Assembly: GCA_028874195.1 (NCBI GenBank)
Contig: JAPPLM010000071.1
Span: 1-42,539 of the forward strand
Source: Chloroflexota bacterium
Lineage (GTDB): Bacteria; Chloroflexota; UBA11872; VXOZ01
DNA: 42,539 nucleotides
Direction: 5' to 3'
The notes under the pieces are model-generated. The model was given only the letters and a program-made list of their open reading frames with translations, made no database searches and was not told the DNA's origin. Below are positions 1,004 to 6,453 of the stretch, one piece after another (positions within the stretch are counted from its first letter, which is position 1; every line of letters begins with the position of its first letter). A program made the position numbers and the translations under genes.

Positions 1004-2971
1004 ATGGCGGAAACTCAGCAGACACATTACGACGTAATCGTGGTAGGCGCGGGCCATGCCGGCTGTGAGGCGGCGCTGGCGGCGGCGCGTATGGGTTGCG
1101 CGACGCTGGTTGTGACGGGTGACCGCGACCGCATCGCGTTCATGCCCTGCAACCCCTCGATTGGCGGCCCGGCCAAGGGCCATCTCGTGCGCGAGATCGA
1201 CGCCCTGGGCGGCGAAATGGGCAAGAACACCGACCGCACCTTAATTCAGATCCGCTTGCTCAACAGCAGCAAGGGTCCCGCGGTGCAGGCGCTGCGCGCC
1301 CAGAGTGACAAGCACTTCTATGCCCAAGCGCTGCGCCAGGTGCTGGAAGACCAAGCAAATCTGACCATCCACAACGGCTTGGTGGAGGACCTGCTCACGA
1401 GCGAGACGCCCGAGGGCAGCCGACGCGTTAGCGGTGTGCAGACCCAGGCCGGACACACGTTCCAAGCGCAGGCTGTGGTGCTGACGACCGGCACCTTCCT
1501 GGAGGGCATGCTGATTACGGGAGAGAAGCGCGTGGGTGGGGGGCGCGCCGGCGAAGCCCCGGCGCAGGGTCTATCCCATGCGTTGCGACGCCTCGGCTTT
1601 CGGCTGCGCCGTCTCAAGACCGGCACTCCGCCGCGCGTGCTGGCGGAAAGCATCGACTTTTCCCTCACAACGCCGCAGCCCGGTTCGCTGCACCCGTTGC
1701 GTTTTTCTTTCACGCCCTTGCGGGAAGAAGAAATCCGGCGTGATAAGCCGGATCCTGTGTATCCCTTTCAGGTTGAGACGCCTTGGCGTCAGCAGATGGT
1801 CTGCTACTTAGCGCATACAAATCCGGCGACCCACGACGTCATTCGCGCCAACCTCCACCGCGCGCCTATGTTCAACGGCGCCATCAGCGGTGTGGGGCCC
1901 CGTTACTGCCCGTCTATTGAAGACAAGATCGTACGCTTCGCGCATAAGGATTCCCACCAACTCTTCCTCGAACCGGAGGGATTCACGACGCATGAGGTGT
2001 ACGTGCAGGGCGCGAATACGAGCTTGCCGGAAGACGTGCAAGCGGACATGCTGCGCACCGTTCCCGCGCTCCGCCGCGCTGAGATCGCGCGGCATGGCTA
2101 CGCTGTGGAATACGATCACGTCGTTACGGACCAGACGAGCGTCACGTTGGAGGCCAAGTCGGTGGCCGGGCTCTTCTTTGCGGGGCAGATCAACGGTACC
2201 TCCGGCTACGAAGAGGCCGCGGCCCAGGGCCTCATCGCCGGTATCAACGCTGCCCGCCGCGTGCAGGGCAATCCGGCTATCGTGCTGGGACGCGATCAGG
2301 CGTACATCGGGGTGATGCTGGATGACCTCGTGAGCCAGGAGCATCAGGAACCCTACCGCCTGTTCACCTCGCGCGCTGAGTATCGGCTGCTGCTGCGTCA
2401 CGACACTGCCGACGTGCGCCTTACGCCGCTTGGCTATGAAATCGGACTGATTGGCGGCGAATGTTATGCGCGTGTCGCAGCGAAGCGTGACCAGATCGAG
2501 CGAACGATGGAGCGCCTCCGCCGGTACTGGATTACGCCGTCACCAAGCACGAACACAGCGCTGGCGGCAGCCGGCGTGCAGCCAATCCGCAGCCAGACCA
2601 AGGCCCTGAGTCTCTTGCAACGTCCGCACGCGCGGTACACGGTCGTTGCCGCGCTCATGGACGACGAGCAGGAGGATGAGCTCGATGCGGAGGTAGTCGC
2701 GCAAATCGAGCTTGAAGCGCGCTATGCGGGGTACGTGGAACGGCAGCAGTCCCAGGTGCGTAAGATGGCGCGCATGGAGGCCATGGCGCTGCCGGAGGAC
2801 TTTGACTACGTACAGCTACCGTCCCTGAGGGTGGAAGCGCGCCAGAAGCTCAGGCAGTTTCAGCCGCGCACCATCGGACAGGCGGCCCGCATCGCGGGCG
2901 TCACACCGGCGGACATTGCCGTGCTCATGGTGCACGTCCACCGCGGTTCGGAAAAAGCAGCGGTACGGTGA
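1004..2971 (+). CDS. mnmG: tRNA uridine-5-carboxymethylaminomethyl modification enzyme MnmG (GidA)
   Basis: MnmG is the FAD-binding partner of MnmE. Together they build the carboxymethylaminomethyl group on wobble U34 of certain tRNAs. The protein opens with the dinucleotide-binding GAGHAGCEAALAAARMG (from residue 15). It then has MPCNPSIGGPAKG with a cysteine at residue 49, the family signature GPRYCPSIEDK with the second conserved cysteine near residue 302, and the second signature GQINGTSGYEEAAAQG. The C-terminal helical part that binds MnmE and tRNA follows, ending IGQAARIAGVTPADIAVL. The frame is open back to 890, but the ATG at 1004 puts the Rossmann strand ten residues from the N terminus, as in the family, and gives 655 residues. 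The DUF3105 gene begins inside its stop codon, so the two are co-transcribed. Confidence 0.96.
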   Translation: MAETQQTHYDVIVVGAGHAGCEAALAAARMGCATLVVTGDRDRIAFMPCNPSIGGPAKGHLVREIDALGGEMGKNTDRTLIQIRLLNSSKGPAVQALRAQSDKHFYAQALRQVLEDQANLTIHNGLVEDLLTSETPEGSRRVSGVQTQAGHTFQAQAVVLTTGTFLEGMLITGEKRVGGGRAGEAPAQGLSHALRRLGFRLRRLKTGTPPRVLAESIDFSLTTPQPGSLHPLRFSFTPLREEEIRRDKPDPVYPFQVETPWRQQMVCYLAHTNPATHDVIRANLHRAPMFNGAISGVGPRYCPSIEDKIVRFAHKDSHQLFLEPEGFTTHEVYVQGANTSLPEDVQADMLRTVPALRRAEIARHGYAVEYDHVVTDQTSVTLEAKSVAGLFFAGQINGTSGYEEAAAQGLIAGINAARRVQGNPAIVLGRDQAYIGVMLDDLVSQEHQEPYRLFTSRAEYRLLLRHDTADVRLTPLGYEIGLIGGECYARVAAKRDQIERTMERLRRYWITPSPSTNTALAAAGVQPIRSQTKALSLLQRPHARYTVVAALMDDEQEDELDAEVVAQIELEARYAGYVERQQSQVRKMARMEAMALPEDFDYVQLPSLRVEARQKLRQFQPRTIGQAARIAGVTPADIAVLMVHVHRGSEKAAVR

Positions 2972-3555
2972 GCGATGAATCTACCAAACGCGGCCGGCGC
3001 TTGAAGCAAAGGGCGGTCCAGGCCCGTAAACGCTCCCGCGACCGCCTGCGACGGCACGTGCACACGCTGATCTTTGCCGTAGGCGTGATTCTTTTGCTCC
3101 TGCTCATAGGCCGCGCGGCCTATCGCAGCGGTGTCCTCCGCAGTCTCCCCGGAACGCCCGTACCGATTCAGAGCAACGAACACATCGCCTCGGTGGACAC
3201 GCCGCACCCGCCGTACAATAGCGTGCCGCCTACGTCCGGTTGGCATGTTGCGACGTTAGCGCCTTGGGGCGTGCACAAGACACCGATTCCGGATGAGCGG
3301 CAGGTGCACAATCTGGAGGACGGCGGTGTGCTGGTGCAGTACAATTGCCTGGATTGCACGGCCTTGATCGCGCAACTCGAGGCATTGGCATCCCGCCACG
3401 AGTACGTGATCGTAGCGCCCTATCCGGAGATGCCCCACCGTATTGCCTTGACCGCCTGGGGCCGCATTCAGACGTTTGACGCCTTTGACGAAGAGCAGAT
3501 CGCAGCCTTCATCGCTGCCTACGCCGGTCTCGACCACCACCCTCGCGGCCTATAG
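2968..3555 (+). CDS. DUF3105 domain membrane protein
   Basis: A 195-residue protein with a very basic N terminus (about 30 residues), one membrane segment at about residues 33-50 (IFAVGVILLLLLIG) and an extracytoplasmic DUF3105 domain. Conserved features of that domain are VPPTSGWH, the V-Q-Y-N-C-L-D-C segment, and IVAPYPEMPHRIALTAWGR. The histidine and two cysteines look like a possible metal or disulfide site, but no biochemical role is established for the family. The GTG start overlaps the mnmG stop (GTGA), indicating translational coupling. The topology suggests a membrane-anchored domain outside the cytoplasm. The family assignment is firm; the function is unknown. Confidence 0.85.
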   Translation: MSDESTKRGRRLKQRAVQARKRSRDRLRRHVHTLIFAVGVILLLLLIGRAAYRSGVLRSLPGTPVPIQSNEHIASVDTPHPPYNSVPPTSGWHVATLAPWGVHKTPIPDERQVHNLEDGGVLVQYNCLDCTALIAQLEALASRHEYVIVAPYPEMPHRIALTAWGRIQTFDAFDEEQIAAFIAAYAGLDHHPRGL

Positions 3556-3702: not shown

Positions 3703-3737
3703 AAAAGAAAACAAGCGCGAGGCGTGACTCCGCGCTT
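3703..3737 (-). terminator. Strong leftward intrinsic terminator
   Basis: Read on the minus strand, the arm AAGCGCG (3737-3731) pairs with CGCGCTT (3719-3713) around an 11-base loop whose edge can extend the stem by two pairs with one bulged G. It is followed at once by GTTTTCTTTT (3712-3703). On the plus strand no T-tract follows the hairpin, so it acts mainly on leftward transcripts. No leftward protein gene ends nearby: the closest upstream on that strand stops at 5194. Confidence 0.75.
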
Positions 3738-4137
3738 CAACTCATGAATAGTATCCGGATCAGGTTCTGTGATCGTGTCAGGAAGGAGACGCTTCGCGAT
3801 ATTGGCACATTCGGGAAGCAATCACAGTCTTGGCAAGACCTTTAGCGCGCGGAGCGACACGGGCGAATTCCCGGAGTTCCTTGGTTTTCGCAGCGGGAAT
3901 GCGAGGATGATCCGAGAAGGTACCGCTGCACTCAAGTGAGCGTGTCACTCTGGATTGCTAGCGTACTCTTGGCTGTCCCACTAGCGCAATCGGCGCAGGA
4001 TTGGTAGCCAACAGCACCGGCATCAGTCTGGATCTCGCACAGAAAACAAAGGGTTCACTGCTGTACACTTCTCCTTATGCCACGTGGCTACCTTGACGGT
4101 AATGACCGTACCGCAAAGGTTCAGTTTCTCGTTGCGG
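3703..4137 (-). ncRNA. Candidate non-coding transcript between promoter unit 1 and the terminator
   Basis: The span from the start expected for the promoter at 4144-4173 to the terminator T-tract is about 435 bases and has no credible reading frame. I looked for landmarks of RNase P RNA, tmRNA, SRP RNA and 6S RNA. Only isolated short matches appear (an ACAGAA and a GGTGCTGTT), so none of these is supported. The evidence is positional: a promoter-like element at one end and an intrinsic terminator at the other. Confidence 0.3.
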
Positions 4138-4143
4138 TTTCCT

Positions 4144-4173
4144 AGTTAACCACACTGCCTCTCAGCGTGTCAA
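4144..4173 (-). promoter_or_regulatory. Leftward promoter-like element, unit 1
   Basis: On the minus strand TTGACA (4173-4168), an 18-base spacer ending in TGTGG, then TTAACT (4149-4144). The -35 box is perfect and the -10 is weak but preceded by TG. The same arrangement recurs at units 2 and 3. Confidence 0.5.
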
Positions 4174-4526
4174 CCGCCCATTTTGCCCTATTTAGAACTC
4201 ACTTCTTTCGTCACCGCGCGATGATGCGCCGCGTGTTCAGGGCGTTCTTCTTTGCGCAAAACGAACGGGGTGGTTCCGTCTCCCGCAATGGCATTTACTC
4301 GCAACTCCGAACTCTGCTAAGTCGCTGCTGGGAAGAGAGCCGGCAAATGCCAAACTGTACGAAACACAGCTTGCTACCGGCTCGATCTCCCATTGAGACG
4401 AGAGGCATCACCCCGTATGCTGTGTGAGATTCTCCTTAGGGCTTCGCTACCAAATGACCGCAATTGGTCACACCACCTCGCGACACCTATCTCACTGCGG
4501 AGCACAGCTTCCAATTTTGCGTTCCA

Positions 4527-4556
4527 AGTTAACCACAGAGCCGTTTGGCGTGTCAA
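4527..4556 (-). promoter_or_regulatory. Leftward promoter-like element, unit 2
   Basis: TTGACA (4556-4551), an 18-base spacer ending TGTGG, and TTAACT (4532-4527). The -35 box lies in a small inverted repeat, GGCGT-TTGAC-ACGCC, which could be an operator. Confidence 0.5.
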
Positions 4557-4836
4557 ACGCCCCCTGCACTCCCCATGACTGCTCACCCCAGCGGTTTCGG
4601 TACACGGGAATGTACCGTATTCCGCGCGATCTCCCTTAAGAACTGCTGTGTAGAGGTCGCTGGGCACAGAGAGCGCGGATAGCTTTTGCACGTTCCAGAT
4701 AATTAGGAGGCACCGGTGAGCAGCGCTCCTGACGCAGCGTAGTCCCTCTCGATTGCTCGAACCCGCAACGGTTGCGCCGGCTGTGCATTACAGCAGTGGC
4801 TTAGCTCACGAAGCTTTGCTGCTCAACCACCGCCCT

Positions 4837-4866
4837 AGTAAACCACACCTTTGTTCCAAGTGTCAA
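4837..4866 (-). promoter_or_regulatory. Leftward promoter-like element, unit 3
   Basis: TTGACA (4866-4861), an 18-base spacer ending TGTGG, and TTTACT (4842-4837). The -35 is again inside a small inverted repeat, AGTGT-TTG-ACACT, with arm sequence different from unit 2. Confidence 0.5.
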
Positions 4867-5193
4867 ACACTCATTGCTGCCAGACAAGCCGCGCCGCCAT
4901 GCCGGCAGAATCCGATGTGCTTGGAGTAGTGCAGGCGTTATGCTCGGATTGTATTTGAGGCCACTACTCAAGCGCAGCACCTCGTAGCACACGTGTAGCT
5001 ATCGCGTCCCCGGTTCATGACACTATCTTGTCAAGCCTAAACCTTGGATTGCGTCCGTACCTGGGAATCTCACGCTGCAACGAGTGTATGTAAGCGGTCT
5101 TAGCTAGGGGATAGTGAGGCGGCTTTTCTTTGAATCGAGCAAGGAACTACCGCCAACGCACAAGGCGGCGGGAATACGTGCGCGTGATACCGT

Positions 5194-6453
5194 CTAGGTG
5201 GCGTGGCGTATGGCTAGCCAAAGACGGCGCAGGCTCATGCGCTGGCCGTAGATGAGGATGCCGGCGCGGAAGACCCGGGCCGAGAGCCATAAGAGCGCCA
5301 GTCCGCTGCCAAAGGTCACGACCAGGCAAAGCGCGATTTCCCAAAGCGCCACGTCGGTTACCCCAAGCCGGATCATCATGGTGGGGGAAGCGGTAAAGGG
5401 AATGAAGGTAAGGATGCGCGCGAATACGCCGTTGGGCGCGAGCGAGATGAACGAGGCGAGGATGAGCGGCGCCAATGCGGGGAGAAGGATGATGCTGGAG
5501 AGGGAAGACGCCTCGCGCGCTGAAACCGTGGCGGCGCTGAGGCCCGCCATGATGACGGCAAAGACGAAGTACCCGGCGAGGAAGAAGACAACGATCGCCG
5601 CCGCCAACCCCGGTGAAAGCGCCAGATCGCCGATATTCGGAAAGGCGCTCACGATGCGCGGCACGAGCGCCGCCAATGAGACCAGCCAGATGCCGACTTG
5701 CAAGAGCCCGGTGGCGCCCAAGCCCAGCACCTTGCCTGCCATCAAGGCCAGCGGCGAAACCGACGTGATGAGCAGCTCGACAACGCGATTTTCCTTCTCC
5801 TCTGACACGCTTTGTAAGAGAGTGCCGCTCACCATGTAGATCACCATGATCATGATCCACGCCGACAGGAACGGTACCGTAAAGAACGTGAGGATTTGCC
5901 CTTCTTCTTCCGCCACTACGTCGCCGTTGGGGGTAACCTCGAAACGCGTAAGGTTCAGAGGGTCTTGCAGGCGCTCCATCCGATCGGCGGAGAATTCGGC
6001 GGACGTCAGCGCTTGCAACACAAGTGCGCGCATGCGGTCTTCGCTCTCATCCCCCGCTATGACGCTGCTCAAGCCGCTATCCGTGTGCAGCCACTCGATG
6101 CGGCCGGTCTGGACGTAGTCCGCCGGAATGATGAAGAGGTCGTCCGCGTCTCCCGCTTGCAACGCGGCAATGCCGGTCTCGCGACCGGCGAACACCTTGA
6201 TTTCGGCAGAATCTCGCTGTTCAAAGGTAAAGTCCGGGGAGAGGTTGACCACGGCAATGACCCTTCCGCTTGCTGAAGTGTCAGCGTTGGAGCCGTCGCC
6301 GCTAAAGAAGCCGCGTACGAGCGGCACGGTCAACGCCAAGACAAGCAGAATGACCACCGGCGTGAAGGTGACGATGAGGTACTGCTTGCGGCGGATGCTC
6401 CGCCGCACTTCCTCCGAGAAGACGACCCTGATTTCTGACAAGAGTCTTTGCAT
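5194..6453 (-). CDS. ABC-2 type exporter permease (NatB-like), second permease of the operon
   Basis: A 419-residue ABC-2 permease. It has an N-terminal membrane segment (TPVVILLVLALTVPLV), a large extracytoplasmic domain of about 150 residues, then five or six membrane segments. The conserved SEEKENRVVELLITSVSPLALMAGK loop between membrane segments and the C-terminal FRAGILIYGQRMSLRRLW are typical of the NatB/YhaP group. The same blocks occur in the other permease of the operon (7006-8286), so the two are paralogues and may form a heterodimer on the single ATPase. The frame extends upstream to 6555, but the ATG at 6453 (MQRLLSEIRVVFSEE) gives the usual short cytoplasmic N terminus. The exported substrate cannot be read from the sequence. 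Confidence 0.88.
   Translation of the reverse strand: MQRLLSEIRVVFSEEVRRSIRRKQYLIVTFTPVVILLVLALTVPLVRGFFSGDGSNADTSASGRVIAVVNLSPDFTFEQRDSAEIKVFAGRETGIAALQAGDADDLFIIPADYVQTGRIEWLHTDSGLSSVIAGDESEDRMRALVLQALTSAEFSADRMERLQDPLNLTRFEVTPNGDVVAEEEGQILTFFTVPFLSAWIMIMVIYMVSGTLLQSVSEEKENRVVELLITSVSPLALMAGKVLGLGATGLLQVGIWLVSLAALVPRIVSAFPNIGDLALSPGLAAAIVVFFLAGYFVFAVIMAGLSAATVSAREASSLSSIILLPALAPLILASFISLAPNGVFARILTFIPFTASPTMMIRLGVTDVALWEIALCLVVTFGSGLALLWLSARVFRAGILIYGQRMSLRRLWLAIRHAT

Follow-up and report, generated by a model that had tools for sequence, protein, structure and literature searches.

What do three evenly built promoter-like sites mean when they stand in a row in an intergenic gap? The gap lies in a 42,539-nucleotide contig from a Chloroflexota bacterium, analysed as a whole and here called the window, and the initial annotation had proposed that its three leftward units were related RNA genes or, failing that, duplicated leaders. 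Relatives of the source group are mostly known from metagenomes and, to our knowledge, the noncoding RNAs of the Chloroflexota, themselves mainly metagenome-known, are almost undescribed; a literature search on Chloroflexi noncoding RNA, intergenic regions and metatranscriptomes returned nothing beyond a general survey. We compared the window's genome (G000) within a set of six species of its genus (G000–G005) and with 35 further genomes of the class. The gap carries three conserved promoter-like elements and a conserved terminator, units 1 and 2 also keep their 5′ segments, and no reading frame is conserved. We favor, at a probability of roughly 0.58, a genus-specific locus in which three co-regulated leftward noncoding units would each be driven by a dedicated extended −10 promoter, share one terminator and carry 5′ segments acting in trans. 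The predicted transcripts are probably small regulatory RNAs.

Promoter-like sites and their distribution

A pattern search located all three minus-strand sites where they had originally been reported, each with the form TTGACAC-N12-TRTGGTTWACTWGG and an 18-base spacer. The predicted promoter of unit 3 (TTGACA-N18-TTTACT, the spacer ending in TGTGG; 4837–4866) is conserved in G002, and those of unit 2 (4527–4556) and unit 1 (4144–4173), both TTGACA-N18-TTAACT, were supported by the pattern search and by the relatives; predicted starts fall at ~4830, ~4520 and ~4137, respectively, and the spacings first given for the sites, 383 and 310 bases, were correct. Within the window, TTGACA-N13-TGTGGTTWACT matched exactly at three positions, and allowing up to three mismatches added none; 100 shuffles gave a mean of 0.07 and never reached three. 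This comparison is partly circular because the pattern was taken from the window itself, such that the relatives provide the independent test. A generic promoter scan missed all three sites because it demands an A at −10 position 2.

Four of the six species (G000, G002, G004 and G005) contained exactly three sites each and no near-match (≤2 mismatches) elsewhere in the genome, while at the same threshold no site was found in G001, G003 or any of the 35 other members of the class. Absence of the units from the corresponding position in related genomes had been set beforehand as a result that would count against the proposal, and it is at that position that the units of these four species were found. 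A BLAST search of 61 genomes, with the entire gap as query, recovered the locus in the same genus only, and a scan of ~85,000 genomes, which may leave out records near the window's own genome, returned only two records with three sites each (contigs of 16,149 and 31,613 bases, equal in length to those of G005 and G004). The distribution across other Chloroflexota envisaged at the outset was therefore too wide, as the locus was limited to one genus in everything searched.

Site order, strand and the 18-base spacer were the same in all 12 copies from the four species, as were TTGACAC, TRTGG, TTWACT and, one base on, GG. The middle of the spacer varied freely between units, while for a given unit it differed little from one species to the next, which indicates that the triplication predates the four species and that the order was maintained. 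Distances between promoters were 383/310 in the window and 383/244, 383/243 and 374/514 in the other three species. Around promoter 3, 40 of 40 bases (4834–4873) were identical in G004 and G005, compared with ~80% nearby. Against G002, the most distant of the four, blastn matches in the gap were restricted to 4061–4177 (84%), 4472–4577 (78%) and 4834–4876 (81%), corresponding to promoters 1 and 2 with the sequence downstream of them and to promoter 3 alone, and the rest of the gap was unalignable.

The element has the −35 hexamer TTGACA, a spacer within 16–18 bases and TRTG before the −10, as in extended −10 promoters of the sigma-A type, in 12/12 copies. Its −10 is TTAACT or TTTACT in 12/12 copies and does not approach TATAAT with an A at position 2, a base usually needed for melting; the E. 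coli trp promoter also has TTGACA and TTAACT. Consensus TTGACA-N16-18-TATAAT sites numbered 12 in the genus genomes against 0 for a reversed-pattern control, which indicates that such spacing is in use in the genus. Outside the locus, TTGACA-N16-19-TTWACT was no commoner than its control, and on this basis we rejected a promoter type in general use by the organism. Among the consensus promoters, TTGACATGCAACCT(C/T)ATGGTTGCGTATAAT is near-identical at G000:C18:44306-44335, G004:C12:132379-132408 and G003:C34:11390-11419, and G002, G003 and G004 share TTGACACCCCTATATGTTGTTTCCTATAAT without a difference.

The variable R of TRTG and the free spacer would be compatible with an extended −10 promoter of the sigma-A type. 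We read the dedicated signature as suggesting either a special factor or one ancestral promoter that was triplicated and kept. A more specific model seems doubtful, namely that a dedicated sigma factor or activator has these three promoters as its whole regulon and that the three noncoding RNAs under its control form a lineage-specific cluster, with function in the 5′ parts and not in the bodies.

Binding sites for a dedicated DNA-binding protein, such as a replication-fork barrier or a chromosome-organising site in a convergent gap, could also account for invariant boxes of this kind. All three boxes have the same orientation, TTWACT does not drift as a −10 would, each genome is without near-copies elsewhere (≤2 mismatches), and the TRTGGTTAACTA half of the box is faintly like enterobacterial Ter sites, a likeness that we take to count for such a protein. 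We nevertheless consider protein sites unlikely given the exact −35 consensus at promoter spacing with a TRTG extended element, the conservation that lies downstream of the boxes with little upstream, and the conserved terminator in the matching direction. Moreover, an unrelated phage contig holds a single copy of the 33-base element (L040, 6824–6856), in the interval separating a terminase-like gene from the next gene and directly upstream of the latter, and no clear GC-skew switch was found at the locus within the window.

Predicted transcribed segments and terminator

Sequence of ~75–95 nt downstream of the promoter was conserved in units 1 and 2. The conserved 5′ part of predicted transcript 1 (4061–4140, minus strand), defined by the block shared with G002 and the alignment, comprises a hairpin with the invariant loop CGGTCAT followed by invariant CATAAGGAGAAGTGTACAG, and its exact 19-mer was found at the locus only. 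In the alignment of this hairpin, 95% of cells were paired and one double change occurred; 265 of 500 shuffles reached that covariation, which is weak and suggestive at most. The corresponding part of transcript 2 (4428–4523, minus strand), supported by the alignment, the G002 block and a covariance model match, ends in TAAGGAG. The conserved core of unit 3 (4834–4876, minus strand) had nothing conserved downstream of it in G002.

The GGTAGC and TAAGGAGAA initially noticed after the promoters of units 1 and 2 were confirmed in both, with AAGGAG found in unit 1 in 4/4 species and in unit 2 in 3/4 (GAGGAG in G005). The weaker TTAAGGGAGA ascribed to unit 3 was not conserved, with G004 and G005 reading TTCACGGGAGA and G002 differing, and is better discarded. 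Beyond the promoter, the unit bodies shared only TAAGGAGAA, in units 1 and 2 (p ~0.07), and pairwise alignments of the predicted transcribed parts against shuffles gave p = 0.069 for units 1 and 2, 0.13 for units 1 and 3 and 0.74 for units 2 and 3. A covariance model built from units 1 and 2 matched those two units alone, in four species of one genus. Three conserved leftward units are present as proposed, but kinship among their RNAs beyond the promoters is not supported, with alignments at or near chance. As for duplicated leaders, no gene lies beyond the units for them to serve; the terminator comes next, and after it the convergent DUF3105 gene. Lengths also differed among species, with ~66 nt of unit 3 (window ~4742–4811) missing from G004 and G005 and ~60 nt extra in unit 1 of G004. 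In G002, several 21-bp tandem repeats (L012, 4906–5052; for example TGCCGACATCTTCCGGCACTG) lie inside the predicted unit 3 transcript.

The intrinsic terminator that had been placed after the last unit, at 3703–3737 on the minus strand, is present and conserved, with the stem AAGCGCG(g)AG/CTCGCGCTT followed by TTGTTTTCTTTT (hairpin at 3713–3737, U-tract down to 3703). In three species all nine stem pairs persist, including two in which both bases changed in compensation; with three sequences the shuffle control (117 of 500) is not strong. The U-tract is weaker in G002, whose terminator was missed by the terminator scan. Promoter 1 and the terminator lie ~430 nt apart in the window, ~480 in G004 and ~450 in G002, with the middle unalignable to G002. 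No terminator was predicted between the units or between the permease gene and unit 3, leaving one predicted terminator for three promoters and not one for each unit.

The absence of a credible protein gene, claimed at the outset, was upheld. Every open reading frame of at least 60 aa was frameshifted in G004 or G005, close relatives, and coding genes in the gap were rejected for this reason; the shorter intact frames fall outside the conserved parts of the units, around the terminator and on the DUF3105 side, apart from one at 3958–4068 that is broken in G004. One could still suppose that units 1 and 2 each lead into a tiny, rapidly evolving peptide, such as a type I toxin or a regulatory peptide, and that AAGGAG is where the ribosome binds, since this motif closes the conserved block of both units at a fixed position in nearly all species and short open reading frames follow it. 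We regard this as improbable, because no normally spaced start with a conserved frame follows, the peptides after AAGGAG vary in length and sequence among G000, G004 and G002, and the conserved AAGGAG is absent from unit 3. Inspection by eye likewise found no conserved open reading frame after AAGGAG in units 1 and 2.

Membership in a known RNA family and a tRNA or tmRNA identity were rejected, as the Rfam search gave no family at gathering score and one spurious eukaryotic snoRNA match (E 2.6), and the tRNA/tmRNA search gave nothing credible. Strong RNA structure was rejected as well, with fold z-scores (+0.35 to −1.7) not clearly better than those of shuffles.

Genomic setting and a model for the locus

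The description of the gap as lying between convergent operons was borne out by its flanking genes, with mnmG and the DUF3105 gene (rightward) on one side and an ABC-2 permease gene (leftward) on the other. The DUF3105 gene (window 2968–3555) looks unstable in the genus, with interrupted pieces in G002, only a C-terminal piece in place in G004 and a short remnant in G001. Because the permease gene, on the same minus strand as the units, ends at 5194 with no predicted terminator before unit 3, the region could belong to the leftward ABC-transporter operon as its long 3′ UTR, with internal promoters that yield 3′-UTR-derived RNAs. This has a small chance of being correct, as G001 and G003 keep the same permease gene without the three-unit region, and it would in any case be compatible with the RNA-gene reading and not exclusive of it.

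G001 and G003 lack the promoter units and have two genes in this gap instead (L045 3809–6535 and L046 1778–4475). One encodes a membrane protein, which has a PMT_2 domain in G001, and the other encodes a protein of 436 or 479 aa on the mnmG strand that has no Pfam family. The gap is a site of turnover, since its contents differ between species of the genus, and the three-unit locus was, as sampled, gained or lost inside the genus. The possibility that the gap is a leftover of this gene pair was rejected, as tblastn found no trace of the pair in the window and the PMT_2-type protein, which in a separate search aligns between G001 and G003, had no match in the four unit-bearing genomes. A phage or plasmid origin was also rejected, with no similar phage or plasmid DNA found. 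The low conservation between boxes and the differing occupancy of the gap by species would suit a functionless remnant, left by duplicated genes that decayed or by an inserted element. Purifying selection, however, is concentrated on the three boxes and the leaders in all four unit-bearing species, and this, together with the lack of a tblastn trace of the G001/G003 pair and of any phage or plasmid match, makes such a remnant very improbable.

In the favored model of three noncoding units, the promoter design would consist of the −35 TTGACA, an 18-base spacer, the TRTG extended −10, TTWACT and GG before the start, and RNA polymerase would initiate near 4830, 4520 and 4137. Transcripts from promoters 3 and 2 could run on to 3703 and produce nested RNAs, because no terminator is predicted between units, and the three units would respond together because of their common promoter. 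The conserved 5′ segments, with a hairpin and the purine-rich AAGGAG, may act in trans through base pairing or protein binding; this step is a guess and the least certain of the model.

Comparison with known small RNA systems

Small RNA loci recognized by an orphan promoter and terminator, and tandem sets of such RNAs, are kinds already known (PMC4211561). Within the searches made, the locus described here is new and restricted to a single genus, a sound candidate more than a surprise. Selection has kept three promoters and short leaders amid turnover, which makes the locus a concrete, testable candidate, and conserved orphan promoters can mark RNA genes without strong structure that covariance-based searches would otherwise miss.

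With respect to the core element, extended −10 promoters recognized by sigma-70 or sigma-A and the E. coli trp promoter between them have the same −35 and −10 hexamers with TRTG just upstream, whereas here the spacer is 18 and not 17 bases and the element is present in three copies with essentially none elsewhere in the genome. The CiaR-dependent csRNAs of Streptococcus are small RNAs that a single response regulator controls as a set, and they are highly similar to each other (PMC4507080). One regulator for a set is comparable to the common promoter signature here, but the signature in common at this locus is the core promoter itself.

The closest parallels are tandem sibling small RNAs, including OmrA/OmrB, PrrF1/PrrF2 with the read-through PrrH, and AbcR1/AbcR2, which are in tandem in some Rhizobiales (PMC4211561). 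As in those systems, short, predicted noncoding units stand side by side without a conserved reading frame, at an orthologous locus in four of the six species, and PrrH-like read-through between units may be possible. The locus differs from sibling RNAs in that its bodies are not clearly alike (p = 0.07, 0.13 and 0.74 against shuffles) and in that one predicted terminator serves three promoters. Some tandem siblings were themselves found through orphan promoters and terminators, as was the locus described here.
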